Assembly: GCF_000350145.1 (NCBI RefSeq)
Contig: NZ_BAOL01000011.1
Span: forward strand, 1 to 48,062
Origin: Ilumatobacter nonamiensis YM16-303
Lineage (GTDB): Bacteria; Actinomycetota; Acidimicrobiia; Acidimicrobiales; Ilumatobacteraceae
DNA: 48,062 nt
Direction: 5' to 3'
Below are positions 1,240 through 48,062 of the stretch, piece by piece. Both the position numbers and the translations under genes were made by a program. The notes beneath the pieces were generated by a model. It was not told the DNA's origin. It was given only the letters and a program-made list of their open reading frames with translations, and ran no database searches. Position 1 is the first letter of the stretch. Each line of letters starts with the position of its first letter.

Positions 1240-1326
1240 CTACGTCCGGGCAACGGGAGACCCGCCCACGTCTTGGCAGTACTCTACAGGTTCGACCCCC
1301 TCGATGTCCATGATTTCGCCACTCAT
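1240..1326 (-). CDS. Possible 28-residue peptide coupled to the kinase gene
   Basis: An ATG at 1326 overlaps the TGA of the HPr-kinase-like gene (ATGA). It opens a 28-codon frame ending in TAG at 1240-1242, 12 nt before the GTG of the Tat protein gene. The peptide starts MSGEIMDIEGVEPVEYC, is acidic, has one Cys, and ends GGSPVART. The position and stop/start overlap fit a translated gene, and a PqqD-like protein in the same operon could act as a leader-binding domain for such a peptide. Against this, an open frame of this length is not rare by chance at this GC content, and the sequence does not match a family I know. It lacks the lasso leader motif seen at 40965-41081. Confidence 0.35.
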   Translation of the reverse strand: MSGEIMDIEGVEPVEYCQDVGGSPVART

Positions 1327-2249
1327 CGTGACGGGCGACCACTTTCGACGCCCGAAACTGATCGTGCTTCCCGTCCGACGTCCGGTTTGCCGGGCGGTGA
1401 CATTCCAACACGCCCGGCCAGAAGGTCTCTGACCTGGTCGTCGAAACGATCGAGTGGTCCGCGATGCCATTCCAGGGTCTGAGCCCCGCGCACGGCCGAG
1501 GCCATCAGCTCCAGCAACTCCGTCCCGTACCGGTCAGGGTCGAAACACGCTTCGATGAGCCGCACCACACCATGGGAACGGGGAAGCGGTCGAATCTCGC
1601 CGGGAACCGCACCACCGGCGCCGAGAAATATCACCAGTTCAGGTGGTCCAGCTGCCGACACGGTGTTCACGCCCAGCGCCGACGCGGCGCACTGCCTCGT
1701 ATCCGGGAGAGCGAACGGAGCGGGCGGGATCGGCGCCTCCTCGGAAGCGATGCCGAGAAGCGACCAGCTTCCCGAGCGCACTCCGATGGGCTTCAGCGAG
1801 CCGGTGCAGGTCCGATCCGCCGAGACCGCTACGACGTCGTCGGTGAGCAAGCGCCACCCTGCCCGAGCAAGAGCAAGCGTCGTGGTCGACTTTCCGGCAC
1901 CCGACTCTCCGACGACCCAGATCGACCGCCCAGCACGGTCGGCGACCGCCCCCGCGTGCAGGAGGGGGCCTGTCGAGCGCTCGACGACCGCTCGGTTCAC
2001 GTGCCAGAACAACATCGACAGAACCCATCCGGGCAGTCCCGATGCAAGCTCGTCGCCGTCCTGGCTGAGTGTCGCGACGCTCGGGTCATCGAGCGTGACG
2101 TCGAATCGCACCGGGGAGGTGACCGGCGCGCGCGAGTCGACGAACACCTCCGCAAGGTGTCTGCGGAGGCCGGGATCGGACGCATGGATCTCGTACTCCA
2201 GGTCGAGCAATCTGCCGGCGATCGGCTTCGGACGCGACAACGACGTCAC
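1323..2249 (-). CDS. HPr-kinase-like P-loop protein of the first cassette
   Basis: This 308-residue protein belongs to the HPr kinase/phosphorylase-like group found in peptide-modifying clusters. The P-loop GESGAGKST is at about 114-122, preceded by the usual LLHAGAVA segment. The acidic motif LLTDDVVAV follows, where HPr kinases bind metal and phosphate. The open frame extends to 2510, but the GTG at 2249 overlaps the nucleotidyltransferase stop by 4 nt (GTGA) and leaves a family-like N-terminus, so I chose it. Family members phosphorylate Ser or Thr, and relatives in lasso clusters phosphorylate the peptide. The substrate here is unknown. No lasso cyclase or B2 protease accompanies this copy. 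A paralogue sits in the lasso cluster at 37933-38871. Confidence 0.82.
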   Translation of the reverse strand: MTSLSRPKPIAGRLLDLEYEIHASDPGLRRHLAEVFVDSRAPVTSPVRFDVTLDDPSVATLSQDGDELASGLPGWVLSMLFWHVNRAVVERSTGPLLHAGAVADRAGRSIWVVGESGAGKSTTTLALARAGWRLLTDDVVAVSADRTCTGSLKPIGVRSGSWSLLGIASEEAPIPPAPFALPDTRQCAASALGVNTVSAAGPPELVIFLGAGGAVPGEIRPLPRSHGVVRLIEACFDPDRYGTELLELMASAVRGAQTLEWHRGPLDRFDDQVRDLLAGRVGMSPPGKPDVGREARSVSGVESGRPSR

Positions 2250-3370
2250 GGCTTCGCCGATCGCCGCATTCCGACCTCTCGCCTCACCGTGTGGAGAAAG
2301 TGCCGGACGCGGTCGCGACGGCTCGAATGACGTGCCGACACGTATCTCTTGGTCGGCAGCGACAGGTCGCGCAGGTACTCGGTCCGTTCTCGCCATCCAG
2401 CGAGCGTGGTCACGCTGAGCGCTGCCCGTACCGCCCATGATGAGTCGGGGTCGCGGTGAGCGGCGATCAGGCCCGCGTCGACGATGCTCGGTGCAACTTG
2501 TGTGCTCCACGCTGGATCGAGTGTCTCGGGCCAGACCGTGGCGCGCAACACGGTGTCGACAGCGCTGTCGAGCAGCGCTTCCACCCCCCAGCCGGCTGCT
2601 CGTTCACGAACCTCGCCGATGTCGATCGTCGGGAGCAGCCGGACGAGGTCTCCGACCGTGGCCAATCGGGCAGGCGGCGGAGCGAGTTCGGCATGCAGGC
2701 AGGCGTGCAGGAAACGGTGTTCCCGGTCGAGTGCATCGATCTCGGTGGACCCGACGAGAAACGGACTCCGCACCGCCCAGAGTTCGTCGACCGGGATGCG
2801 ATGGCCGACCGGGCCTTCGGCGATCGTGCGGTGGACATCGAACTCGATGTCGCCGACCCACGTGATGCTCTTCCCGTACCGACGGTCGAAGCCCGCCCGC
2901 GGCTCGGGATAACGACGCCGAAAACCGTCAGCCCGGAGGATGTCGAACACTTTGGGGAGATCGCTCGACCGGACGAGCACGTCGATGTCACCGAACTCGC
3001 GCAATTCCGGTCGCAGATGATCGAGGTGGGCAGACGCCGGCCCCTTCAGACTGCGAAGTTCGATCCCAGCGGTCGCCAATTCGTCGTGGAGCCAGATCAA
3101 CCGCGATTCCAGGTGGACGCAACGCGCCATGGCGCCACGCCAACGATCCACCAATGGCGCCACCCGCGACTCGTCGACCACGAGCACACCGTCACGCGCC
3201 GCCCACGCGAGCGCGGGGATCACCCGTCCTCTCGCCGCCGTGTCGACCAGCGCGAGCCACTGCGAATCCGTCCACGCCGATGTGTCGACGGTCGTCGTCG
3301 GGAGGCCGAGTGCATCGGCAGCGATCAGACGTCCGAGCAGAACCCGGTGCGCGAGCACCTCAGTACTCAC
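2246..3370 (-). CDS. Nucleotidyltransferase-like protein (PF14907-type) of the first cassette
   Basis: This 374-residue protein has the nucleotidyltransferase-fold signature of the 'uncharacterised nucleotidyltransferase' family. LKG is at 108-110, followed by DHLRPELREFGDIDVLV ending near 133, where the Asp pair should bind metal. A partly helical C-terminal half follows. Relatives occur beside HPr-kinase-like genes in lasso clusters, where they are proposed to act on a phosphorylated peptide. The gene overlaps the upstream PqqD-like gene by 11 nt and the downstream kinase gene by 4 nt, so the three are almost certainly co-translated. The exact reaction and acceptor cannot be read from the sequence. 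The paralogue at 43065-44255 has the same core motif. Confidence 0.8.
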   Translation of the reverse strand: MSTEVLAHRVLLGRLIAADALGLPTTTVDTSAWTDSQWLALVDTAARGRVIPALAWAARDGVLVVDESRVAPLVDRWRGAMARCVHLESRLIWLHDELATAGIELRSLKGPASAHLDHLRPELREFGDIDVLVRSSDLPKVFDILRADGFRRRYPEPRAGFDRRYGKSITWVGDIEFDVHRTIAEGPVGHRIPVDELWAVRSPFLVGSTEIDALDREHRFLHACLHAELAPPPARLATVGDLVRLLPTIDIGEVRERAAGWGVEALLDSAVDTVLRATVWPETLDPAWSTQVAPSIVDAGLIAAHRDPDSSWAVRAALSVTTLAGWRERTEYLRDLSLPTKRYVSARHSSRRDRVRHFLHTVRREVGMRRSAKP

Positions 3371-3611
3371 GAACCAGCAGACCCTCGGCGACCAACTGAT
3401 CGATCACCCCGCGAGCATCCTCCACCGCGTCGGGCTCGTCGGTGAACATTTTTGCCACGTCGGCGAGGACGTCCGACTCGGGACGTCCGCTTCCGATCAG
3501 CCGATAGACGATGCCCGCCGCACCGAGCAGCTCGACCTCGCGAGCCGTCGAGCCGTCGAACAACACGATCCAGTCGTCGAGATCTCGCGACGGGGTCACG
3601 GGGCGGACCAT
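3360..3611 (-). CDS. PqqD-like peptide-recognition protein, minus arm
   Basis: This 83-residue protein matches the PqqD/RRE fold in size and pattern. An N-terminal strand pair (WIVLFDGSTAREVELLG) is followed by an aliphatic helix (AAGIVYRLI) and two helices ending LVAEGLLVREY. Such proteins bind leader peptides and present them to modifying enzymes. It is the first gene of the minus-strand arm and overlaps the nucleotidyltransferase gene. It is divergent from a second PqqD-like gene, with only 86 bp between them. No PQQ synthesis genes and no lasso cyclase are nearby, so its partner peptide is unknown. The family call is fairly safe; the role is inferred from the fold. Confidence 0.75.
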   Translation of the reverse strand: MVRPVTPSRDLDDWIVLFDGSTAREVELLGAAGIVYRLIGSGRPESDVLADVAKMFTDEPDAVEDARGVIDQLVAEGLLVREY

Positions 3612-3697
3612 GTGACGCTCCCCGCCTTATGCTCGTGCACGAATCGGGCACGCATTCCGATCGCCCAACCACGTGCTCCGACCATCACCGATCCATC
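3612..3697. promoter_or_regulatory. Divergent promoter region between two PqqD-like genes
   Basis: These 86 bp separate the starts of two PqqD-like genes on opposite strands and must hold promoters for both arms of the cassette. I could not assign convincing -35/-10 boxes, so the call rests on gene orientation. Confidence 0.5.
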
Positions 3698-3991
3698 ATG
3701 ACATCTCGCCGACGATCCGACTCGTTTCCACGGCTCCGGGACGATCTCGGCGCCGTTGCGGTCGACGGCGACATCGTCGTCTACGACGCTACGGCCGAGA
3801 CCGCACACGTACTCTCCGGTGGGGCGGTCGCAGTGTGGTTGGCCCTGGAGAACGAAACCGGACCGCGCGATGTCACCGCTCGGGTGGCGGAGATCGTCGG
3901 CGAGGATCCCCGCGTCATCGCCGACGAAGTGGATGACGCGGTCCGATCGTTCCGCGAGCGCGGCTTCCTCGTGGCGGACAGCGGGGCATGA
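3698..3991 (+). CDS. PqqD-like peptide-recognition protein, plus arm
   Basis: This is a 97-residue PqqD-like protein. Strands DLGAVAVDGDIVVYDATAE and TAHVLSGGAVAVWLAL are followed by helices containing the acidic segment VIADEVDDAVRSF and the closing RERGFLVAD, which is the usual layout of PqqD/RRE proteins. The ATG at 3698 gives a family-length product; upstream in-frame starts would add unrelated residues. Its TGA overlaps an ATG at 3988 (ATGA) that opens the interrupted frame leading into the 4075 gene. With the protein at 3360-3611 it forms a divergent pair, so each arm may have its own recognition domain. Confidence 0.75.
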   Translation: MTSRRRSDSFPRLRDDLGAVAVDGDIVVYDATAETAHVLSGGAVAVWLALENETGPRDVTARVAEIVGEDPRVIADEVDDAVRSFRERGFLVADSGA

Positions 3992-4053
3992 GCCGGAAGC
4001 CCGACGGCGCCGGAGAGGCCGTTCGGTTTCTCGACGAGCCACCGAATCCTTGA
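3988..4053 (+). other. Short coupled frame in line with the 4075 gene
   Basis: An ATG at 3988 overlaps the TGA of the PqqD-like gene. The frame runs 21 codons (MSRKPDGAGEAVRFLDEPPN...) to a TGA at 4051-4053. It is in the same reading frame as the gene starting at GTG 4075, so the two could once have been one gene interrupted by a nonsense codon. It could instead be a tiny leader peptide, or chance. The overlap with the upstream gene favours 3988 as an original start. Confidence 0.35.
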
Positions 4054-4074
4054 GGCGGCGCTCCCGCCAGCCCC

Positions 4075-4851
4075 GTGTGGGCCGGTTCGTACGTCTACAG
4101 CGATGGCAGGTGGCGGATCGGACTGTGCGCCGACGACCAAGAGCTGATCGACGCCATCGTCCGCTCGGTTCCCGGCTCGGTGACGGAAACCGAGGACCCG
4201 CCTCCGGGCTACTCGTTGATCGCCCATCCCGGCCTCCTGCCGCCGGCCGGCGGGCCAGGATCGCCGCGTGAGCTCGCCTCGCTCCGCCGCGGTTCCACGA
4301 CGCTCCTGCGAAGCCGCGACCCGGTGCGGCTCGCACGGTCGCTGGCGCTCCACCTTCGCTCGCACCCCGCAGCCACCGACCAGCGGGTTCGGCTTCGGTC
4401 GGCCGCCGTCGTGCGCGACGATTCCGTCGTCCTCGTCCCCGCAGAGGTGCTGTGGCAGGCGGGCCTCGAGTCGCGCCTCGCCCGTGCGGGCATCGCCCCC
4501 GTGGACTCACCCGTCATCGAGATCGACGCCGTCGAGCGCGGCAAAGGATTCGCGTGGATCCCCCGCGCGTGGCCAGGCGGAGGAACGCCACCGGGAGCGG
4601 TCGACGTCGACCAACAGCGCCTACCGATTCGCCGTTGGCTTCTCGACCCCGTCGGCTTTGACGCTCACGACATCGGGAGCGCCAGCGGTTTGGTCGCCGC
4701 AGCGTGTACCCGGATCGATCCCGGTTCGGGCGCTCATCCACACGATGCCCTCGAAGCGGTCGCTCACCTGCGAACGGTCGTGATGCCGCTCCCGCTGCAA
4801 CTCACGGCGAGCGACACGATGGCCGTGATCTCTCAGGCGCTCGAGACCTGA
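4075..4851 (+). CDS. Unknown protein resembling an HPr-kinase fold without a P-loop
   Basis: This 258-residue protein is not clearly recognisable. The stretch SAAVVRDDSVVLVPAEVLWQ, followed by RLARAGIAPVDSPVIEID, tracks the order of an HPr-kinase-like core: an 'H/S-x-A-x-V-x-R-D...VLVPG' strand, a helix, then 'AG...SDE...ID'. The Gly-x4-Gly-Lys-Ser/Thr loop is absent and replaced by AEVLWQAGLE. If the alignment is right, this is a catalytically dead relative of the kinase at 1323-2249 and may be a scaffold or regulator. The GTG at 4075 is the first in-frame start after the TGA at 4051-4053. An AGGCGG lies 17 nt upstream, which is too far for a strong ribosome site. It sits downstream of the plus-arm PqqD-like gene, probably in the same transcript. 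Confidence 0.65.
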   Translation: MWAGSYVYSDGRWRIGLCADDQELIDAIVRSVPGSVTETEDPPPGYSLIAHPGLLPPAGGPGSPRELASLRRGSTTLLRSRDPVRLARSLALHLRSHPAATDQRVRLRSAAVVRDDSVVLVPAEVLWQAGLESRLARAGIAPVDSPVIEIDAVERGKGFAWIPRAWPGGGTPPGAVDVDQQRLPIRRWLLDPVGFDAHDIGSASGLVAAACTRIDPGSGAHPHDALEAVAHLRTVVMPLPLQLTASDTMAVISQALET

Positions 4852-37932: not shown

Positions 37933-38871
37933 TCAGGTGCCGATGAGCCCGGCAATTGCCGGTGCGATCTCGGAACTGAACGGCGGACCCCATGGCACGG
38001 TCACGTTGTGGACGGCGACCCCATTCACGATCGATCCGAGCGTCTCGAAATCACGTCCGAGGACCTGTGGATCACGCCACCCGTACACCCGCGGAAAGCG
38101 GAGCATGGCGAAGACCGCGTCCGCCGGAGCGATGGTGGAAACCGAGATCGTCGTCGAGTCATGGTCAGGCGATGGAATGACGATCGCGCCGAGTCGAAAA
38201 CTCCTCAGCGGCGCCGTCCGCGGCGCTACCGCGAGTCGGTCGTCGGCAGTTCGCCGACTGGACGCACCGCTCATGGCATCGGCGAGCCCAAACGCTTTCG
38301 TACGCAATCGCAGCTCGGGAGCACCCCCGGTGCACATCACGGGATTGCCGGACTCGACCACGAGAACGTCGTCCGTCACGAGTTCGGCACCGCTTGCACA
38401 CATCAATGCTGCGATCGTGGACTTTCCACGGCCCGACTGGCCGACGAACGCGATCGCCGTGTCGCCAATTGACACGGCGCTCGCATGGAGGACTGTCAGG
38501 CCACGGAGAGCGAGCACAAACGAGCTGACGGTTCCGGCCAACAACACGGGGAGCAGTTCATGGCGCCCGGAGCGGTCAGGACGGACAACGATCTGGGCCA
38601 GATCGCCAGAGATCTCACACTGGCCGCAGTTCCGGAATCGAAGGATGTAACCCCCGTCGGTACGGGTACCGGTATACCAGCGCGCGCCGGACGGATCATC
38701 GAGCCTGACAAGTTCATCTCCAGGGGGAAGATCCTGGGTGCTGCTCATATCCGAACCAAGACAGATGTCGACATCTGTCCGTCCGGCGGCAATCGTGGGA
38801 AGGGCGAGCTCCACCTCCGAACGAACGTGCAGGCCGCATTGAAAATAGTGGAAACGGGAGGGTGTAGTCAT
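37933..38871 (-). CDS. HPr-kinase-like lasso peptide kinase
   Basis: This 312-residue P-loop protein has LTVLHASAVSIGDTAIAFV followed by GQSGRGKST (about 143-151) and the acidic motif ELVTDDVLVVE. That is the plan of HPr kinases recruited to lasso clusters, for example PadeK of the paeninodin cluster, which phosphorylates the C-terminal Ser of the precursor. The predicted core here ends in Ser, which fits. Its ATG overlaps the B2 protease stop (ATGA), giving the operon B1-B2-kinase. The frame extends to 39153 within B2 and is rejected there. The role is well supported by context; substrate specificity is inferred. Confidence 0.86.
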   Translation of the reverse strand: MTTPSRFHYFQCGLHVRSEVELALPTIAAGRTDVDICLGSDMSSTQDLPPGDELVRLDDPSGARWYTGTRTDGGYILRFRNCGQCEISGDLAQIVVRPDRSGRHELLPVLLAGTVSSFVLALRGLTVLHASAVSIGDTAIAFVGQSGRGKSTIAALMCASGAELVTDDVLVVESGNPVMCTGGAPELRLRTKAFGLADAMSGASSRRTADDRLAVAPRTAPLRSFRLGAIVIPSPDHDSTTISVSTIAPADAVFAMLRFPRVYGWRDPQVLGRDFETLGSIVNGVAVHNVTVPWGPPFSSEIAPAIAGLIGT

Positions 38872-39371
38872 CGTTCTGCGCCGACCGGAGGCGGGCCGAA
38901 GGTTCTGTACGAAGTGATGTCTTCGAGCGGCCGTCCGTCGATCTCGAGCCAGGCATGAGCGGTGAACTGCTGCGTCTCCCCACCGATCACGCCGAGCCGG
39001 AGTGCGGGATGGAAATGCCGCAGCAGATGCCCCGCGATGAGGGAACGACGCAAGCACGGACCCCTGCTGAACGGCCAGGCGTCGGTGACCCGGCGCGTGC
39101 AGAGCATCTGCCGTTTGGTCGTCGCAGGGAGATCGTCGAGCGGCAGCGGACATGCGGTCGAATCGACAGGTGACAGGTCGAGGTGAACACCGAGGAGCGC
39201 TGCCAAGCGCCGAAGTTTCATCGTACGGATGAGCACCTCAACGACCACGATCATGCCAAAGACATGGACCGTCGTGAGTAGGTCGCGTGGGGGTTGCCCC
39301 ACGGCTCGGCGTGCCTTGCGCGCCAAATCGGTCAGGCCATTGTGCGGCGGGTGCCGACGATTTGCAGTCAC
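38868..39371 (-). CDS. Lasso peptide leader protease (B2, transglutaminase-like)
   Basis: The 167-residue protein has the B2 layout. An N-terminal helical part (LTTVHVFGMIVVVEVLIRTM) is followed by the cysteine protease fold with Cys106 in GPCLRRSLIAG, His139 in FTAHAWLEIDG and Asp151 in RPLEDITSY. That gives the expected Cys-His-Asp triad. It removes the leader peptide with help from the B1 protein encoded immediately upstream. The GTG start overlaps the B1 stop (GTGA). Its sequence is slightly more variable after strand 1 than in well-studied actinobacterial B2 proteins, but the triad is clear. Confidence 0.9.
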   Translation of the reverse strand: MTANRRHPPHNGLTDLARKARRAVGQPPRDLLTTVHVFGMIVVVEVLIRTMKLRRLAALLGVHLDLSPVDSTACPLPLDDLPATTKRQMLCTRRVTDAWPFSRGPCLRRSLIAGHLLRHFHPALRLGVIGGETQQFTAHAWLEIDGRPLEDITSYRTFGPPPVGAER

Positions 39372-39631
39372 TCATCCTCGATGAGGTTGCGTTGCCGAAG
39401 ACTGTCGAGGAATCGACCCACATCCGTCGCCGCGAGTTCTGGAGCGATCGCGTACCGGTCCGTGAGAGCAGTCACGAGCTCCGTCTCGGTCGCGCCCTGG
39501 CTGAGCAGCTCCCAGAGCGCTCGACCGCTTCCGTTCAGCTTGAGATACACGGAGCCATCGAGATCGAGGATGACCACCTCATCTCCCGCTGCGTGCCACG
39601 TCAGCTCATCTTTCCTGAGTTGCATACCCAC
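39368..39631 (-). CDS. Lasso leader-binding protein (B1, PqqD-like RRE)
   Basis: The 87-residue protein has the PqqD/RRE order of strands and helices: DEVVILDLDGSVYLKLNGSG, LWELLSQGATETELV and the final helix FLDSLRQRNLIEDE. In split lasso systems this protein binds the leader of the precursor and delivers it to B2 and the cyclase. The frame opens at GTG 39631 with an ATG two codons later (39625), either of which may be used. It heads the B1-B2-kinase operon and is divergent from the cyclase gene, with 57 bp between the two starts. Confidence 0.87.
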   Translation of the reverse strand: MGMQLRKDELTWHAAGDEVVILDLDGSVYLKLNGSGRALWELLSQGATETELVTALTDRYAIAPELAATDVGRFLDSLRQRNLIEDE

Positions 39632-39688
39632 CCACTCTTTTCAGTGACCGTTGACGGGGCCGCTTCGCGACCATCCTAGGCTCCACGC
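39632..39688. promoter_or_regulatory. Divergent promoter region, B1 / lasso cyclase
   Basis: Only 57 bp separate the starts of the B1 and cyclase genes, so both promoters must overlap here or lie within the neighbouring starts. Boxes were not assigned. A shared regulator would act on both arms of the lasso cluster. Confidence 0.4.
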
Positions 39689-40867
39689 ATGTTCGTTCGT
39701 GCGCCCGAGAACCCGTACGTCATGACTGAGTTCGACACTGTAGTCGGAGTTCTGCTCGGTCTCGAGGAATCCGAGCGGAATGAGTCGGGTGGCATTGACC
39801 CACGGGCCACGCTCGAGCGAGTCGTGTTCGAACTCATGGTGTCGTCCCGACCGCCGTATGTCGTGGCCTTCTCGGGAGGGCGCGATTCATCGCTGATTCT
39901 CGCGATCGCAACGGCGATCGCGCGGCGAGAGGGACTTGACCTGCCGACACCGGTCACCAAGGTCTTTCCACACGTGACCGAATCGAACGAGGAGAAGTGG
40001 CAGACGGCATTCCTCAAACACCTCCGGCTCCCGGATTGGGAGCGACTGGAGCTCGCCGACGAGCTCGATATCGTGGGTCCTCTCGCTACTCAGCGGTTGC
40101 TCGAGTTCGGGGTACTGTTTCCGGCGACTATTGTGGGCGATGTACCGATGCTGGAGGTTGCCCGGGGCGGCCTGATCTTGGACGGTGAGGGCGGAGACGA
40201 CATTCTTGGCTCGGAAGCACACCGCATCGGCTCGTTGGAGCGCCTGCGACGCGGATCGCTGCATGGACGGGTGCGCAAGCTGCCGAGTGTCGCGGAACGC
40301 CTCCTACCCAATCGGATACGAGCACCGCGACAAGTTGCCGGGATGAAGCCAACGCCCTGGCTCACTCCTGCTGCAGCGGCGGCGCGGAAGCAGGCGCTGG
40401 TAGATGCCGAAAAGCTGCGTCCGCTGTCGTTTGCGCGGAGCGTTCGACAGGCACGGCGCAGGCGTTCCGTCGTGATCGGCTCAGCCAATCGCGCGTATTT
40501 CGCCGATCGTTTCGATGTGCACCTTGCGAGCCCGATCCTGCACCCGGACTTCGTGGAATCGATGGCCCGATTGGGAGGGATTCTGGGCCCCGGCCAGCGC
40601 AGCGACGTTCTCCGGATGATTGCTCCCGACCTCCTTCCCGACGAAGTGGTCAGCCGCCGAAGCAAAGCAATCTTCAATCGGGCCATCATGGGTCAGCACA
40701 GCAGAGCGTTCGCTGAGAATTGGGACGGTTCGGGAGTCGATCGCTCCCTTGTGGACGTCGACGGACTCCGAAACGAACTCTTGTCCGAACGACCCAACGC
40801 AGCGGTGGCGGCTCTCGCACAGTCCGCGTGGCTTGGATCTCAGCCGGCGAACGGGGTCAAAGAATAA
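39689..40867 (+). CDS. Lasso cyclase (asparagine-synthase-like, no glutaminase domain)
   Basis: The 392-residue protein has the ATP-pyrophosphatase core of asparagine synthetases: VVAFSGGRDSSLILAIA (PP-loop near residues 58-68), then LILDGEGGDDILGSE near 165-176, and further conserved SVVIGSANRAYFADRF. Lasso cyclases use this site to adenylate the ring Asp and join it to Gly1. Typical actinobacterial cyclases are about 600 residues with an N-terminal glutaminase-like domain; here only about 55 residues precede the PP-loop, so that domain is missing. No upstream in-frame remnant was seen. It lies 97 bp before the precursor gene and divergent from the B1-B2-kinase operon. Confidence 0.88.
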   Translation: MFVRAPENPYVMTEFDTVVGVLLGLEESERNESGGIDPRATLERVVFELMVSSRPPYVVAFSGGRDSSLILAIATAIARREGLDLPTPVTKVFPHVTESNEEKWQTAFLKHLRLPDWERLELADELDIVGPLATQRLLEFGVLFPATIVGDVPMLEVARGGLILDGEGGDDILGSEAHRIGSLERLRRGSLHGRVRKLPSVAERLLPNRIRAPRQVAGMKPTPWLTPAAAAARKQALVDAEKLRPLSFARSVRQARRRRSVVIGSANRAYFADRFDVHLASPILHPDFVESMARLGGILGPGQRSDVLRMIAPDLLPDEVVSRRSKAIFNRAIMGQHSRAFAENWDGSGVDRSLVDVDGLRNELLSERPNAAVAALAQSAWLGSQPANGVKE

Positions 40868-40871
40868 ACCC

Positions 40872-40901
40872 TTGCCACGGTGGGGGATGAACCACTACCC
40901 T
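40872..40901 (+). promoter_or_regulatory. Candidate promoter of the lasso precursor gene
   Basis: TTGCCA (40872-40877) matches the -35 consensus at five of six bases. TACCCT (40896-40901), a TAnnnT -10 box, follows 18 bp later. Transcription would start near 40908 and leave a leader of about 55 nt before the start codon. This would allow separate, strong expression of the precursor, as is common in lasso clusters. Confidence 0.5.
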
Positions 40902-40950
40902 CAGTGAGGACCCGGCGGGGCGATTTGCCTGAAGTCGTCGGGCGGACAAC

Positions 40951-40957
40951 AAAGGAG
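40951..40957 (+). promoter_or_regulatory. Strong ribosome binding site of the lasso precursor
   Basis: AAAGGAG lies 7 nt before the GTG at 40965 and is a near-perfect Shine-Dalgarno sequence. It decides the start of this very short gene. Confidence 0.8.
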
Positions 40958-40964
40958 CCACAAC

Positions 40965-41081
40965 GTGGAAAAGTATGAGACACCGGAAATCATCGAGCTC
41001 GGTTCGGTCGCAGACGTGACCCAGGGCGAGGGCCTCGAAGGCAACGCAGACAACGTGTGGATCTTCAGCTGGGGTAGCTGA
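40965..41081 (+). CDS. Lasso peptide precursor, 38 residues
   Basis: A 38-codon gene too short for usual annotation. The leader (residues 1-20) carries the actinobacterial lasso motif YxxPxIxxxGxxxxxTxG as YETPEIIELGSVADVTQG, with the conserved Thr at position -2 before cleavage. The core should be GEGLEGNADNVWIFSWGS (18 residues). Gly1 can be joined to Asp9, the only acidic residue at positions 7-9, giving a nine-residue ring, a loop and a Trp/Phe-rich tail that can lock the thread. There is no Cys, so this is a class II lasso peptide. The last residue is Ser, the expected target of the linked HPr-kinase-like enzyme. It starts with GTG behind a strong ribosome site and is followed by a perfect hairpin. 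Confidence 0.93.
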   Translation: MEKYETPEIIELGSVADVTQGEGLEGNADNVWIFSWGS

Positions 41082-41105
41082 ACTTCACTGAAGGTTCTGC
41101 AATTC

Positions 41106-41147
41106 ACAAGGCATCTGGTCTGCGCACATGCGGGCCAGATGCCTTGT
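41106..41147 (+). terminator. Perfect 13-bp hairpin after the lasso precursor
   Basis: ACAAGGCATCTGG (41106-41118) pairs without mismatch with its reverse complement at 41135-41147 around a 16-nt loop. It sits 24 nt past the precursor stop and ahead of the convergent exporter gene. It is the most stable hairpin in the lasso cluster. It could be a bidirectional terminator and could also protect the short precursor mRNA. Confidence 0.7.
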
Positions 41148-41201
41148 CTGCGTTTTCGCCCAGGGTGGTTACTCACGAGCGAGCCGCTCGAGAATCCCGT
41201 C

Positions 41202-42998
41202 TCAGCTCCTGAGTCCGTATCGGTCTGCTTGGAGGTTGAAGAGATCGTGATACAGACCACCCGACCTCATCAGGTCGACGTGACTCCCCATCTCGACCAC
41301 GTCACCGTGGTCCATGACGACGACCGCATCGGCCGACCGGACTGTCGCGAAGCGATGTGAGACGAACAGTACGATCCGATCGAAACAGAGTTCGTGGAGG
41401 AGATCGAACAGATCCGCCTCGGCTTGCGGGTCCAGTGATGCCGAAGGTTCGTCAAGAATCACGATCGGAGCGTCACGGAAGAGCGCCCGAGCGATCGCGA
41501 GACGCTGCCATTGGCCGATCGACGCGTCGGTCCCTCCGGCGAAGACCTTGCCGAGACGCGTGTCGATTCCCGCAGAATTCGAGCGGATGAGGTCGTCGAC
41601 GCCCGCCTCGATCGCGGCCCGCTCGATTCCTTCCTCGTCGTCGATTCGATTGATATCCCCGAGCGCAATCGAACTTCGGATCGTCAGCATGAACTTTGCG
41701 AAGTCCTGGAAAACCGGAGCCATTTGGGCGCGTACCAACGCCGGGTCACAGACCGCGATGTCAACTCCGTCCCAGCAGACTTTTCCCCGAGTAGGCGGGA
41801 GGAGATTTCCGATCACCTTGGACAATGTTGTCTTGCCTGACCCGTTTGCCCCCACGATCGCCATCACCTGACCGCGCCGGAGTTCGAAGCTCACCGAACG
41901 AACGGCATCCTCTTGAGCGCCTGGGTACCGATATCCAAGGCCCTCAACGGTGAGCGTCGTCGGTGGAGTCGGAGGGATCGCCGTCGGTCGACGCTTTCGG
42001 ATGTTCGGGAGTTCCGCTCGAAAGCTCTCGAAGTCTCGGAGGAATGTGATTCCCTGGTGAACGTTCGTGAAGGCCGTCCCCGTCGAGCGGAGACGGCTGC
42101 TGAGCTGCTGGAGCCCGACGATCGCGACCGCGGCGTCACCGATCGAGATGACGTTTCGCCCAGCCAAGATCAATGCGAACGAGAGAGTTGCGATCATCGC
42201 CGCCGTATTCACGACGGCACCAAACGTCGTTAGCACCAACCGCTTTCGTACAAGATCACGCAGACGACCGAGTCGAATGTCCCACAGGTCGGAGTGCCAC
42301 CGGCGGAATGTACCGGCGATGTCATACGCACGGACTTCCTTTGCCATCTCCCGCGACGTGAGAACCACCTCGAGGTACACGCGCTCTCGCTGCAACTCGG
42401 TGAGATCCCGCTCCATCTGGTACTGCGCCCGGTTGTTCCTGACATTGACGAACGCGATGGGGAAGTAGCTGATGACTGCGATCGGGACGAGAACTGGTGC
42501 CACCGTGAAGAGCACCCCGATCACTCCGACCGCAACAACCAACGTCGACATCATGGTGACGAGGCCGAAGACCACCGCCGACGACTGGCCTCCGGCCGCG
42601 GCGCGGGCCCGCTCGAGCCGATCGTGAAAGTCGGAGCCTTCGTAGAACTCGAGTTCGACTTCCGTCGCAACATCAAGAACATCGTCCATGGTCCGCCGCT
42701 GTACCTTCTCACCGAGCGGGATGCGCAGTTCCGTCGTTGCCGCTTGGCTCAGCGCACTGGCCATCAGCAAACCGCCGAGGAGGATCAGGTACGGAACGAG
42801 TTCACCCGTCGCTACTCCCGTCGTACCTGCGAGAAGGTCGAGGAGCGAACGGCCGACGAGGAGTTGGCCTGCTACGGCGAGTGAGGTGATCACGGTCGCC
42901 GCGAGGATGAGTAGGAGCGTTCCCCGTCCTGCTGCCCAGACCAACGTGAACGCCAGCCTCACCGTGCCGATCGAGTTGGTCGTGTTGTCCGCTGCCAT
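41202..42998 (-). CDS. ABC exporter of the lasso cluster (D protein)
   Basis: This 598-residue half-exporter has a membrane domain in about the first 310 residues (GTLLLILAATVITSLAVAGQ, SSAVVFGLVTMMSTLVVAV, AMIATLSFALILAG). The ATPase part has P-loop GANGSGKTT near 380 and Walker B IVILDEPSASLD near 511. The signature is ASIGQWQRLAIARAL rather than LSGGQ; a 'GxWQR' variant is familiar in peptide-exporting ABC proteins. It should export the mature lasso peptide and give immunity. ATG 42998 is preferred over TTG 43007. It follows the nucleotidyltransferase gene on the same strand, 66 bp apart, and converges on the precursor gene. Confidence 0.86.
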   Translation of the reverse strand: MAADNTTNSIGTVRLAFTLVWAAGRGTLLLILAATVITSLAVAGQLLVGRSLLDLLAGTTGVATGELVPYLILLGGLLMASALSQAATTELRIPLGEKVQRRTMDDVLDVATEVELEFYEGSDFHDRLERARAAAGGQSSAVVFGLVTMMSTLVVAVGVIGVLFTVAPVLVPIAVISYFPIAFVNVRNNRAQYQMERDLTELQRERVYLEVVLTSREMAKEVRAYDIAGTFRRWHSDLWDIRLGRLRDLVRKRLVLTTFGAVVNTAAMIATLSFALILAGRNVISIGDAAVAIVGLQQLSSRLRSTGTAFTNVHQGITFLRDFESFRAELPNIRKRRPTAIPPTPPTTLTVEGLGYRYPGAQEDAVRSVSFELRRGQVMAIVGANGSGKTTLSKVIGNLLPPTRGKVCWDGVDIAVCDPALVRAQMAPVFQDFAKFMLTIRSSIALGDINRIDDEEGIERAAIEAGVDDLIRSNSAGIDTRLGKVFAGGTDASIGQWQRLAIARALFRDAPIVILDEPSASLDPQAEADLFDLLHELCFDRIVLFVSHRFATVRSADAVVVMDHGDVVEMGSHVDLMRSGGLYHDLFNLQADRYGLRS

Positions 42999-43064
42999 GT
43001 CCGCCAAAGGCTACGCCGTTCGGTGCTCTCGGGCCTCAGGAGAGGCCGTACCCGGGTTTCGTGA

Positions 43065-44255
43065 TCATTGCTCTTCCGACGAGTTGCCCGCCTCGTTGTG
43101 GGTAGCGCTCTCGCCGCCCCACCGTCGGCGGGTGACTCGCCACAACCGGTCCCACCGAGAAGAGTAGCCACCCCGGGCGAGAAACTCATCCGATGGTGAT
43201 GCCCAGTTCCGGAGCACCCGTAGCCGGTCGCGCGGAGGCATGCCGAGCGTCTTGGCAAGCTTCAGGTCGAACTTGTCGAGATCCGGGCGGTCATATGCCC
43301 GCCGCAACGCGAAGTCCAGCGGATGCCTACCCCGCACGCCGACCACGACCCGGTCGGCGCCGCACAACACCGCAGCGCGCTCCGTGATACGTCGCACCAC
43401 GTCCGCGACATTTGTCGCCTGCAAGAGCTCGGTGGCCGTACGTCGTTCCAAATTGTCGGCCGCTCGAGCGATGAGCAGGAGGTCAAGCAGCGATGACATG
43501 ATTCGATGATTGGGATACGAGATAGCCAAGTGACTCGCCGCATGCGCCATCCGTCCGCCGCGATCGAACGCGCGGAACTCGTGACCGCCGATCGTGAAGC
43601 TCTCCCACTTGTCCCAATAGTCCTCTGGGATCGGCCGGCCAACCGTGTGGAGTCGTCGGTGGAGATCGATCGAGTAGTGGTCGTTAAGCCGCCAAGTCTC
43701 ACCTTTATCCATCAACCGGATATCGAGATCTGCTCCGACGAAACCCGAATCAGCGAGAATTTGACTGGCTTGACGGAAACCGCTGTCGCCTCGGACCAGG
43801 AGATCGACGTCGGCGGATTGGCGGAGCCCAGGTTGGACGTGATCGAGATGGCCGGTCGCCGTCCCCTTCAGCACACGGAACTCGACGCCGGCGTCGTTGA
43901 AGCGCGCCCCTACGTCGACGAGCATCGATTCGAGCTGGAGGCCGTGCACGACCTGGCGCATAGAGGCGCTCTCCAGATTGCGCTGGAGACGATCCGTCTC
44001 CGCGACAATCCGTCCGGACTCGACAGCGGCGCGGAGCTGCGGCACGAGGCGGTGATAGTTGAGACGAGCGAACAACACATCCTCAGCGTCGGGAGCGACG
44101 ACGACGGGTGCGCACTCGTACTCCATATCGAGGAGGACGCGGACGAGGTCCACCCCGCGTTCGTGGAGCGCCAACTCAGGGTCGAAGAAACGCAGGGCAT
44201 CGCCAGGCGTCATCGAGTCGGTCGCGAGCGCTGTGGATGATCGGCGTCGTCGCAT
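43065..44255 (-). CDS. Nucleotidyltransferase-like tailoring enzyme of the lasso cluster
   Basis: The 396-residue protein belongs to the same family as the gene at 2246-3370. It has VLKGTATGHLDHV (from residue 128) followed by RQSADVDLLVRGD (about 145-157), where the Asp pair should bind metal. In kinase-containing lasso clusters this gene type is linked to further modification of the phosphorylated peptide. Here it is co-directional with the exporter. Start ATG 44255 is uncertain; ATG 44213 (MTPGDALRF) would remove a basic, non-conserved tail. Together with the kinase it suggests a lasso peptide modified at its C-terminal Ser. Confidence 0.8.
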   Translation of the reverse strand: MRRRRSSTALATDSMTPGDALRFFDPELALHERGVDLVRVLLDMEYECAPVVVAPDAEDVLFARLNYHRLVPQLRAAVESGRIVAETDRLQRNLESASMRQVVHGLQLESMLVDVGARFNDAGVEFRVLKGTATGHLDHVQPGLRQSADVDLLVRGDSGFRQASQILADSGFVGADLDIRLMDKGETWRLNDHYSIDLHRRLHTVGRPIPEDYWDKWESFTIGGHEFRAFDRGGRMAHAASHLAISYPNHRIMSSLLDLLLIARAADNLERRTATELLQATNVADVVRRITERAAVLCGADRVVVGVRGRHPLDFALRRAYDRPDLDKFDLKLAKTLGMPPRDRLRVLRNWASPSDEFLARGGYSSRWDRLWRVTRRRWGGESATHNEAGNSSEEQ

Positions 44256-44576: not shown

Positions 44577-45512
44577 ATGCGTGTGGCGGTCACCGGCGGT
44601 GCCGGATTCATCGGTTCGAACCTCTGTGAGCACCTGCTCGCGACAGACGGCGTTCAGTCCATTGCGATCATCGACGACCTGTCCAACAGCCAGATCGAGA
44701 ACCTCGACGGGCTGAACGTCGAGTTCGTCGAAGGAACCATTCTCGATCACGATGCGCTCGATCGGACGTTCGACGGTGCCGACGCCGTCGTCCACCTCGC
44801 CGCGCTCGGGTCCGTGCCGCGCAGCGTGGCGAATCCGATCGCCTCCCATGCCGTCAACGCCACCGGCACCGTCATGGTTCTCGAGGCCGCGCGCCGCCAC
44901 GGCAACCTCCACACGATCGTTGCGGGAAGTTCCAGCGTCTACGGGGCGAATCCGACGCTGCCGAAGCACGAGGACCTCGCCACGCGTCCGCTCTCCCCCT
45001 ACGGCGGCAGCAAGCTTGCCACCGAGGCATACGCCTTGGCATGGGGTGCCAGCTACGGGCTACCAGTCCTGCCCTTCCGCTTCTTCAACGTGTTCGGGCC
45101 CAAGCAGCCCGCCGGCCATGTCTACGCCGCGGTGATTCCAGCGTTCGTCGACTCAGCGCTGCGCAGCGAACCGGTCACAGTGCACGGCGACGGCATGCAG
45201 AGCCGCGACTTCACCTATGTGGGCACCGTGACCGCAGCGATCACGCAAGCAATCCTCGACCGCACCGTCAGCGACGCGCCGGTCAACCTCGCCTTCGGGT
45301 CACGCATCACCCTCCTCGACGCGCTCGAAGAGCTCGAGGGAGTGCTCGGGCATCCGGTCGAACGGAATCACATCGAACCTCGCGCGGGCGACGTGCGCCA
45401 CAGCCAGGCCGACAACTCGCGGCTGCTCGAACTCCTTCCGAACGTCGAAGCGGTGTCATTCATCGATGGTCTTACGACCACCGTCGACTGGATGCGTACG
45501 ACGCACGCGTGA
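44577..45512 (+). CDS. UDP-glucose 4-epimerase-like extended SDR
   Basis: The 311-residue extended SDR begins VAVTGGAGFIGSNLCEHLL with the Gly-rich cofactor loop. It continues with IIDDLSNSQIENL, HLAALGSVPRSVANP, the Ser in VAGSSSVYGANP, YGGSKLATEAYA with the Tyr-Lys pair, and FRFFNVFGPKQ. It resembles GalE/WbpP-type 4-epimerases, which invert C4 of UDP-hexoses or UDP-N-acetylhexosamines. It is transcribed away from the lasso cluster and converges with the membrane-protein gene. Substrate cannot be settled without structure-based comparison. Confidence 0.88.
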   Translation: MRVAVTGGAGFIGSNLCEHLLATDGVQSIAIIDDLSNSQIENLDGLNVEFVEGTILDHDALDRTFDGADAVVHLAALGSVPRSVANPIASHAVNATGTVMVLEAARRHGNLHTIVAGSSSVYGANPTLPKHEDLATRPLSPYGGSKLATEAYALAWGASYGLPVLPFRFFNVFGPKQPAGHVYAAVIPAFVDSALRSEPVTVHGDGMQSRDFTYVGTVTAAITQAILDRTVSDAPVNLAFGSRITLLDALEELEGVLGHPVERNHIEPRAGDVRHSQADNSRLLELLPNVEAVSFIDGLTTTVDWMRTTHA

Positions 45513-45554
45513 CGCGATCTGATGTAGATACGGCTGCCGGAGCAAGACTCTCGA

Positions 45555-46238
45555 TCAACGACCGCCCGCCGCTTTCGTGATGGTCACGATGATGATCGAG
45601 CACACCAACGACGCCAACGCCACGAGCGCCAGTTCGACTAGCGACTCGCCGGTGGACTTGGCGATTCCTCCCGTGCGCACCCCGACGAGTGCGGCGAACG
45701 CGCCGACGCCAGCGACGAGCAGCGAGGTCCGAGAGCCGGGCTCGATCGGGCGGATGAGACTCACAAGCGGCAGATTGACGAAACCCCACCAGGCGAACAG
45801 CATTCCCGCCATGGCGCTGAATCGACCCGACATGCCATACATCCCGGCCAGGAAGATCGGGATCGCAGCGGCGGCATACCACGACAGATGCAGCGGCTGA
45901 CGCACCGCCAGTTCGAGTAGCAGCACCCCAATCGGCAGAAACAGCATGTTCGGGAATTGGCTGGTCTCTGGCACGCAAAGATACGTACCGGCCAACGCGA
46001 GAGCGATCGCTCCGCCGCCCACCCCGGCGACCGGCACCAACCGTCGGAACGCAGGCATGGCCGCGCCCACCAACGCGCCGGTCACGATCGCTGACACGAC
46101 GAACCACCGGTTTGCGCCGCCGCTGAAATCACCGAATTGTTGAAAGAGAGCGACGATTCCTCCAGCGATCGCTGCGCCGACCGCACCGCTCGGCCCAATG
46201 AAGTCCATGGACCGCCACCGCTCGAATTCAGTGGCCAT
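45555..46238 (-). CDS. Small polytopic membrane protein, function unknown
   Basis: This 227-residue protein has about seven hydrophobic segments, including SGAVGAAIAGGIVALFQQFG, VGGGAIALALAGTYLCV, LFLPIGVLLLELAV and SLLVAGVGAFAALVGVRTGG, ending in a short positively charged tail. ATG 46238 lies 1 nt after the stop of the aminotransferase gene, so the two are co-translated; the longer frame to 46292 lies inside that gene. I recognise no family. A transport or flippase-accessory role in glycan synthesis is possible by context only. Confidence 0.75.
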   Translation of the reverse strand: MATEFERWRSMDFIGPSGAVGAAIAGGIVALFQQFGDFSGGANRWFVVSAIVTGALVGAAMPAFRRLVPVAGVGGGAIALALAGTYLCVPETSQFPNMLFLPIGVLLLELAVRQPLHLSWYAAAAIPIFLAGMYGMSGRFSAMAGMLFAWWGFVNLPLVSLIRPIEPGSRTSLLVAGVGAFAALVGVRTGGIAKSTGESLVELALVALASLVCSIIIVTITKAAGGR

Positions 46239-46239
46239 C

Positions 46240-47379
46240 TCAGGCCGCCCCGCCCGACGTGATGACGTCGCAGACACGATCCACGTCGTCATCGGTGAGC
46301 CGCGATCCCGAAGGAAGGCTCAGGCTGCGATCGAACAGATCTTCAGCGACCGTTCCGCCGACGACCGGGTGGTCGGCATACACGGGCTGGAGGTGCATCG
46401 GCTTGAACGCGTGACGCGCCTCCACACCGGCGTCACGCAAACGTTCCAGGACCGGCGTCGGCACGAGTCCACTCTCGGGAGCGAACGCGACCGTCGTCAG
46501 CCAATGGTTCGGTGCGACGTCCGCGGGAATCGCCTGGAAGGTCGTTCCGTCGACCACTGACAGCCCGCTTTCGTACCGGGCCCGAACACTGCGCCGCGCC
46601 GCGATCCGGTCGGGCAACGTTCGCAACTGGCCACGCCCGACCGCAGCGTTGAGGTTGCCCATCCGATAGTTGAACCCGATGTCCTCGTGCTCGTACCACG
46701 GCACGGGCTGACGTGCCTGCGTGCTCAGATAGCGCGCACGAGACACGATCTCGACGTCGTCGCTGAAGATCGCTCCCCCACCGCCCGTCGTGACCATCTT
46801 GTTGCCGTTGAACGACAGGATCCCGACACGACCGTGACGCCCCGCGTGGATCCCGTTCCGGAAGGCACCGATCGCTTCGGCGGCGTCGCACACCATCGGC
46901 ACGTCGTAGTCGGCGCAGATCGCGGCGTATCGGGCGCCGTCCGCGACGGAGCCGTAGAGGTCGACGGACACCACCGCTGCAGGAAGCGACCCCGCGCCCG
47001 CACGGCGCTCGAGTTCCTCGGCGAGCAGGTTCGGATCCATGTGCCACGTGTCGGGTTCGCAGTCGACGAAACACGGACGTGCGCCGAGATGCGACGCGGC
47101 AAACGCGCTGGCCGCGAACGTCAGCGTGCCCATGAGCACGTCGTCGCCCGCCTCGACACCGACGGCCATCAACGCCAGCTCCAGCGCAGCCGTGCCGCTC
47201 GACAACGCGGCGACCGCGGGAGCTCCGGTCAACACGGCGAGCTCCTCCTCGAACGCGTCGATGTCCGGCCCTGCCGGGGCAACCCAGTTGGAGTCGAACG
47301 CGGCGATGAGCAGCTCACGCTCGTCGGGGCCGACCTCGGGAGGTGAGAGGAGGAGTTTCCAGTCGGATCCGTCGGCCAC
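46240..47379 (-). CDS. DegT/DnrJ/EryC1 sugar aminotransferase
   Basis: The 379-residue PLP enzyme has LLLSPPEVGPDERELLIAAF and the NWVAPAGPDIDAFE start of the family. It continues with ALSSGTAALELALMAVGVEAG, GTLTFAASAFAASHLG and the PLP-linked Asp in VCDAAEAIG. The Schiff-base Lys lies in SFNGNKMVTTGGGG. It should transaminate a keto-sugar nucleotide to an amino sugar; this resembles PglE/WecE-type enzymes acting on UDP- or TDP-4-keto sugars. GTG 47379 is the family-like start. It is co-translated with the membrane protein downstream and divergent from the phosphatase gene. Confidence 0.9.
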   Translation of the reverse strand: MADGSDWKLLLSPPEVGPDERELLIAAFDSNWVAPAGPDIDAFEEELAVLTGAPAVAALSSGTAALELALMAVGVEAGDDVLMGTLTFAASAFAASHLGARPCFVDCEPDTWHMDPNLLAEELERRAGAGSLPAAVVSVDLYGSVADGARYAAICADYDVPMVCDAAEAIGAFRNGIHAGRHGRVGILSFNGNKMVTTGGGGAIFSDDVEIVSRARYLSTQARQPVPWYEHEDIGFNYRMGNLNAAVGRGQLRTLPDRIAARRSVRARYESGLSVVDGTTFQAIPADVAPNHWLTTVAFAPESGLVPTPVLERLRDAGVEARHAFKPMHLQPVYADHPVVGGTVAEDLFDRSLSLPSGSRLTDDDVDRVCDVITSGGAA

Positions 47380-47459
47380 CCGGACATTCTGACAGCTCGG
47401 CGAACACATGCGGGACACGCGTTTGTACGCCGAGCGCAGGTGGGGAAGACTGTGCGCCC

Positions 47460-48062
47460 ATGGCGGGTCCCGCACACGACATCCAGATCCTGTGCGTGTG
47501 CACCCACAACCGGACTCGGTCGGTGATGATGGCCGCGCTCCTCGGGGGACATCTCGAAGCGGTGGGGATCAACGCCTCGGTGACGTCAGCGGGACTTCAC
47601 CGTGACGCAAACCCCGCCACCGACGGCGCAATTCGTCAGATGGCCTTGCGCGGCTACGACGTCCGGTGGCACGTCGGGCACCGGATCAACCGCGACGACG
47701 TCGAAGATACCGACCTCATCCTCACCGCCGAGGTTCTCCACGTGGCCGAAATCGCCGGCATCTGGCACGACACCTTCGAGCGAGCGTTCACGCTCCCCGA
47801 GTTCGTCGCCAACACGGACGAGTCACCCCAGGGCCTGACGTTGCCCGGCCTTCTGGAGCGCATCAACGTCGGACGCCCCACGGCCCTCGACTACCTGGAT
47901 GCCCGAATCGGCGAACTCCACGATCCAACCGGCGAAGGCCCCGCGCAATGGGAGGCCAGCGTGGAGCGGATCGACGATCTGACCGGGCGCGTCGCCGCGA
48001 AGCTCGCAACGCTCGATCTCGTCGGCACCGACCGCGCCATCGGGTGTCAGACACAGGATGGC
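47460..48062 (+). CDS. Low-molecular-weight protein tyrosine phosphatase, 3' end cut by window
   Basis: From ATG 47460 the frame stays open to the last base, so at least 201 residues are present and no stop is seen. The N-terminal motif ILCVCTHNRTRSVMMAALL contains the CX5R signature (Cys-Thr-His-Asn-Arg-Thr-Arg-Ser) of this family, with TSAGLHRDANP after it. The region DPTGEGPAQWEASVERID matches the late Asp-Pro loop with the general acid. In polysaccharide loci such phosphatases dephosphorylate the BY-kinase or other regulators; here the candidate partner is the Wzz/BY-kinase-like protein at 31542-33203. It is divergent from the aminotransferase, with an 80-bp gap. Confidence 0.86.
   Translation, partial: MAGPAHDIQILCVCTHNRTRSVMMAALLGGHLEAVGINASVTSAGLHRDANPATDGAIRQMALRGYDVRWHVGHRINRDDVEDTDLILTAEVLHVAEIAGIWHDTFERAFTLPEFVANTDESPQGLTLPGLLERINVGRPTALDYLDARIGELHDPTGEGPAQWEASVERIDDLTGRVAAKLATLDLVGTDRAIGCQTQDG

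Follow-up and report, generated by a model that had tools for sequence, protein, structure and literature searches.

In the pseudomycoidin system, a kinase (PsmK) is paired with an annotated nucleotidyltransferase (PsmN) for one lasso peptide (PMC9266682). The product has a (poly)phosphorylated terminal serine bearing hexoses (PMC9266682, PMC8498205), and PsmN is reported to be necessary for the presence of one or two hexoses on the phosphoserine (PMC9266682). A His-Lys-Asp-Asp set of residues is required in the lasso kinases PadeK and ThcoK (PMC9266682). In the literature searched, clusters of the lasso-kinase kind come from Firmicutes, Proteobacteria, rumen bacteria and Bradymonas (PMC9266682, PMC10368454, PMC8498205). 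A 2026 review notes that the lasso cyclases are still without a crystal structure (PMC13352647).

The stretch of DNA analysed here (the window) comprises 48,062 nucleotides of Ilumatobacter nonamiensis YM16-303 (contig NZ_BAOL01000011.1). Its open reading frames and their profile matches define a lasso cluster of seven genes at 37933-44255, in the order K, B2, B1, C, A, D and N. All the genes that a sequence-only reading had named there (A, B1, B2, C, D, a kinase and a nucleotidyltransferase) were recovered in their places:

37933..38871, minus strand: K, HPr-kinase-like lasso kinase, 312 aa (PF07475 and HprK_rel models)
38868..39371, minus strand: B2, transglutaminase-like leader peptidase, 167 aa (Transglut_core3; NF033537, lasso_biosyn_B2)
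39368..39631, minus strand: B1, PqqD-type leader-binding protein (RRE), 87 aa (PF05402, 8e-19)
39689..40867, plus strand: C, short macrolactam synthetase of 392 aa (single domain, Asn_synthase)
40965..41081, plus strand: A, precursor composed of the leader VEKYETPEIIELGSVADVTQ and then the core GEGLEGNADNVWIFSWGS, core at 41025-41078 (lasso_leader_L3)
41106..41147, plus strand: hairpin of 18-19 pairs directly 3' of A (fold z-score -4.5)
41202..43007, minus strand: D, ABC exporter (membrane and ATPase parts), 601 aa
43065..44255, minus strand: N, NTP_transf_5 nucleotidyltransferase-fold protein, 396 aa

Only C and A lie on the plus strand; K, B2, B1, D and N are on the minus strand. The start of K overlaps the stop of B2 by 4 bases, and B1 and B2 overlap likewise. 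A longer K frame of 406 aa (start 39153) extends back over B2; the ATG at 38871 is the likelier start. B2 passes the lasso B2 model NF033537 (48.2 bits, cut-off 33), while B1 lies above the Pfam cut-off for PqqD, yet under two narrow NCBIfam lasso PqqD models. The hairpin, which a pattern scan by itself recovers no better than chance and which is supported by its fold z-score, is likely to be a terminator or a 3' stabiliser.

The precursor gene starts with GTG, preceded by AAAGGAG. Its leader carries YETP (a YxxP motif), with Thr at -2 and Gln at -1, and matches the NCBIfam model lasso_leader_L3 at 29.7 bits (cut-off 19). The core of 18 residues has Gly1 and Asp9, serines only at positions 15 and 18, and a tail of 9 residues after Asp9, NVWIFSWGS, with the bulky Trp12, Phe14 and Trp16. 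As had been noted from the sequence, the core ends in Ser, Ser18 being its last residue. The features expected of a lasso precursor (YxxP, Thr at -2, Gly or Ala at 1, Asp or Glu at 7-9) are present together, and sister cores that retain Gly/Ala1 and Asp9 (GEGWEGDDD, AQGWNGNDD, ANLFGSSPD) can be aligned with this one. A is a convincing lasso precursor.

Both putative tailoring enzymes retain their motifs. K carries the residues of paeninodin-type lasso kinases intact, namely H129, K150 (in the P-loop GQSGRGKS), D167 and D168, which 66-72 of 72 relatives share; its match to Hpr_kinase_C (PF07475), confined to the P-loop half, stays below the Pfam cut-off (26.6 vs 33.3 bits). N matches NTP_transf_5 (PF14907) at 83.6 bits against a cut-off of 31.2 (2e-23). 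Its conserved residues are K130-G131, R145, D149-x-D151, D197 and H199, with the D-x-D pair and the third acid found in 51/51, 51/51 and 46/51 relatives, respectively, and Glu replacing the third in the remainder. Comparison of folds was needed for both N and C, since searches of solved structures by sequence returned no useful relative of either. The AlphaFold2 model of N (mean pLDDT 79) matches MenT1 with a Z of 17.6 (2.6 A over 180 residues), ANT(2'') with Z 12-13 and FKRP with Z about 9. The modelled fold and the D-x-D motif are taken here to favour nucleotidyl or sugar-phosphate transfer. In the N tree, the window protein sits on a long branch, within no supported set, and a plasmid search with N gave no match.

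C is Asn-synthetase-like, matching Asn_synthase (PF00733) at 40.3 bits (cut-off 21), and has no N-terminal glutaminase-like domain: full-length synthetase and cyclase models align from model position 238 onward, and the albusnodin/ikarugamycin cyclase model gives 28.1 bits against a cut-off of 300, which does not describe a full-length McjC/albusnodin-type enzyme. The loss is general among relatives, since all 69 scanned match Asn_synthase and none a glutaminase domain. Moreover, a stop codon lies at most 150 codons ahead of the SGG motif in 62 of 82 short-C frames, which leaves no space for a glutaminase domain there. The motif SGGRDS and Lys326 are conserved, and a model of mean pLDDT 94 shows an intact, well-folded synthetase part. 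Its fold corresponds to the synthetase parts of Asn synthetase, beta-lactam synthetase and TsnB9 (Z 16-19); in the AsnB and human Asn synthetase chains, the matched region begins after roughly residue 140. C may be considered a putative lasso cyclase, the missing N-terminal domain counting against this assignment. A single-domain C raises the question of whether lasso cyclases need a glutaminase-like domain, and a compact protein of 390 residues, modelled with high confidence, might prove easier to solve.

The co-occurrence of a kinase and a nucleotidyltransferase in one actinobacterial cluster had been thought uncommon. A scan for short C genes, with one genome per species, gave 69 loci, all from Actinomycetota. 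Locally built profiles were applied to the 38 related loci that span 20 kb or more, all of them actinobacterial: 37 contain K, 37 contain N, and 36 have the two together no more than 10 kb from C. The claim of rarity is therefore wrong for sequenced genomes. The K and N pair is the rule in a broad family of short-cyclase clusters. The two genes remain associated with the other five despite rearranged gene orders, across many genera and orders of Actinomycetota, and the view that they belong to the lasso cluster is borne out by their conservation as neighbours in dozens of related clusters, with catalytic motifs intact. The family occurs in cultured genera, including Amycolatopsis, Prauserella, Nocardioides, Blastococcus and Isoptericola. 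A phylum-wide genome search added few new members, and a family-level search yielded a small set for checking. A literature search of incomplete coverage found no paper on this actinobacterial cluster family. The real novelty lies in a glutaminase-less cyclase family with a near-constant K and N pair and two precursor types.

Several variants occur within the family. Two short C genes share one K, N, B2 and D in L038, L041, L043, L049, L053, L056, L059 and L070, and several such clusters encode a pair of unlike precursors (GQSSGSRLDADFAAGTLFGDLTFS and ANLFGSSPDNLTWAIPILGDNDAYS at L041, for instance). At another short-C locus (L068, 6373-7088, minus strand), six short precursors stand in tandem; their acidic cores are 10-13 residues long, and several end in Asn and not in Ser. 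Loci of Acidimicrobiia in which short C was not detected (L104-L107, L109, L110) have PqqD, mostly B2, a kinase and NTP_transf_5, and in some of them YxxP precursors occur that show no clear ring acid (L110).

The two precursor types emerge from a comparison of 86 precursors, reduced to a non-redundant set of 59 cores (<60% similarity). Fifty-seven precursors have no Lys-Asp pair at spacing 6-7; an acid is present at core positions 7-9 in 54 of these and Gly or Ala starts the core in 40, and the window precursor is of this type. The pair is carried by 29 of the 86, and among the 26 whose Lys is at position 3 or beyond, only 3 have an acid at 7-9 and only 6 start with Gly or Ala. Presence of the pair and of the acid at 7-9 are opposed (Fisher 7e-9). 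Lys stands six residues ahead of Asp in 23 cases among the 86 precursors (shuffles: mean 3.1, maximum 9, n=500) and in 17 of the 59 non-redundant cores (mean 2.4, maximum 10, n=2000); near-copies as the source of the excess can be dismissed, as it persists after this reduction. In the same core sets, the counts of Arg six residues ahead of Asp and of Lys six ahead of Glu are both 0. On the C tree the two types are clustered, with at least 6 changes on well-supported branches, and nine later cores agree with the division: six carry the pair (two are near-copies and one is doubtful), and three belong to the Asp9 type.

In the pair type, the leader Thr(-2) is fixed while Lys shifts from core position 1 to about 9. 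Such variable distances from a fixed leader, in precursors that adjoin C and lack an acid at core positions 7-9, are seen in L047, L066, L072, L035, L045, L053, L061, L029, L084 and others. By our count, a side-chain ring between Lys(i) and Asp(i+6) has 26 atoms, one to i+7 has 29 and an ordinary eight-residue lasso ring has 25; a nine-residue lasso ring has 28 (PMC13352647). Because the Lys-Asp rings are near ordinary lasso rings in size, closure through the side chain is proposed: the short-cyclase family may make two rings, one from Asp9 to the N-terminal amine and, in the sister type, one from the Lys side chain to the Asp 6 (or 7) residues later, with a free N-terminal tail. The core patterns make this conceivable, but it is put forward with considerable reserve. 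The main alternative is that sister leaders are cut directly before Lys. Against this, Thr(-2) keeps its customary spacing in all 74 precursors retrieved with a search pattern that did not require Thr. Lys side-chain ring closure in lasso peptides was not described in the literature searched, and if the Lys-Asp type is real, lasso-like rings need not be closed at the N-terminus. The cores of three precursors (L053 9687, L045 9580, L061 9277) have one Cys directly ahead of Lys (QACKYGYGAD, QNCKYGHGAD) and another close to the C-terminus, which hints that two-Cys Lys-Asp cores may also hold a disulfide.

The cluster lies in a polysaccharide-type locus (8228-37788 and 44577-47475) with genes for glycosyltransferases, a deacetylase, an SGNH acyltransferase, epimerases and a DegT aminotransferase, which is a possible source of NDP-sugars for N. 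Towards the left end of the window (1323-4851) lies another K-N-PqqD set, in which B2, C and a precursor were not recognised:

ending at 1323, left end of the window: second HPr-kinase-like gene
2246-3370: second NTP_transf_5 gene
3360-3611, minus strand: PqqD-like ORF
about 3698-3991, plus strand: PqqD-like ORF
4075-4851, plus strand: possible further kinase-like ORF

It seems reasonably probable that the window cluster makes a Gly1-Asp9 lasso that is phosphorylated at Ser18 by K, then modified by N and exported by D. B1 would bind the YxxP leader, and K would phosphorylate the terminal Ser18, probably while the precursor is still linear, as PadeK does. B2 would cleave the leader following Thr(-2)-Gln(-1), after which C would activate Asp9 with ATP and join it to the Gly1 amine, giving a 9-residue ring. 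The predicted lasso would be of class II, without Cys, the nine-residue tail presumably threaded through the ring. N would then act on the phosphate and add a nucleotide- or sugar-derived group, as reported for PsmN in pseudomycoidin, and D would export the final product. This order is modelled on paeninodin and pseudomycoidin, and we infer both the succession of steps and the chemistry of N from them.

The site of modification can be judged from the family. Ser ends 54 of 74 distinct cores and makes up 7.5% of residues elsewhere in them, these being related and not independent sequences, for which a binomial estimate exaggerates the contrast; at loci with both K and N, 40 of 51 cores end in Ser and 11 do not. 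This conserved terminal Ser supports Ser18 as the site, in line with the first-studied lasso kinases, which act on a terminal Ser (PMC9266682). The core nevertheless holds two serines, and BsfK phosphorylates Ser3 of its own peptide (PMC10368454), a non-terminal residue, which leaves room for K to modify Ser15 (or several residues) and so to place the decoration inside the tail or loop. Such a site is unlikely here, because the residue conserved in the family is the last one. By analogy with pseudomycoidin, the window cluster is best predicted to phosphorylate Ser18 and then to make an addition that depends on N. Even the assignment of K and N to the peptide could be disputed, since the second K-N-PqqD set stands without lasso genes in the same window and Acidimicrobiia carry K, N and PqqD sets in which the short cyclase was not detected. 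Such sets without cyclase or precursor, seen at 1.3-4.9 kb of the window and at several Acidimicrobiia loci, imply that the pair is also used outside lasso peptides. That K and N serve the adjacent polysaccharide locus and merely adjoin the lasso genes is nonetheless very improbable, given that they accompany the five other cluster genes through changes of gene order, that K and B2 overlap by 4 bases and that the terminal Ser is conserved.

The short cyclase invites a further objection, namely that it yields an unthreaded macrolactam or another amide and no lasso. Its missing N-terminal domain and its score far under the albusnodin/ikarugamycin cut-off speak for this, but the leader, RRE, peptidase, Gly1...Asp9 spacing and Trp12/Phe14/Trp16 are all lasso-like and the synthetase part is intact and confidently modelled, so that a product other than a lasso is held to be improbable. 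A refinement of the main pathway, compatible with it, concerns N, which may move a nucleotide (AMP or UMP) or an NDP-sugar-derived sugar phosphate to the phosphoserine, giving a phosphodiester or pyrophosphate conjugate and not a simple glycoside. The nucleotidyltransferase fold of the N model, with matches that include FKRP (CDP-ribitol phosphotransferase), points in this direction; the glycosyltransferase, epimerase and aminotransferase genes around the cluster could supply the donor, and a review treats hexose addition by PsmN itself or by a host enzyme as unsettled (PMC9266682). On the other hand, PsmN products are reported as hexosylated (PMC9266682), nucleotide-transferring enzymes match N better, and the identity of the donor does not follow from a shared fold. 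The refinement is a real possibility that falls a little short of even weight.

Window C has in common with Asn synthetase, beta-lactam synthetase and McjC-type cyclases the ATP-pyrophosphatase synthetase domain, SGG(R)DS and the conserved Lys, but, unlike all of these, C and 68 relatives are without the N-terminal glutaminase-like domain. With paeninodin (PadeK) and with ThcoK and SyanK the window cluster shares an HPr-kinase-like P-loop protein, the His-Lys-Asp-Asp residues and a core with terminal Ser, although the published PadeK, ThcoK and SyanK clusters are from Firmicutes and Proteobacteria (PMC8498205) and the K described here resembles HPr kinase models only remotely. The bsf cluster of Bradymonas sediminis FA350 likewise unites A, B1, B2, C, D, K and N (PMC10368454), but its leader has a penultimate Ile and not Thr, and BsfK acts on Ser3 and not on the terminal residue (PMC10368454). 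The pseudomycoidin cluster (psm, Bacillus pseudomycoides DSM 12442) combines lasso genes, a kinase and an annotated nucleotidyltransferase, as the window does; psm belongs to Bacillota, whereas the window cluster is actinobacterial, with a short cyclase and divergently placed C and A. The window would extend phospho-lasso and possibly glyco-lasso chemistry from Bacillota and the other characterised examples to Actinomycetota.
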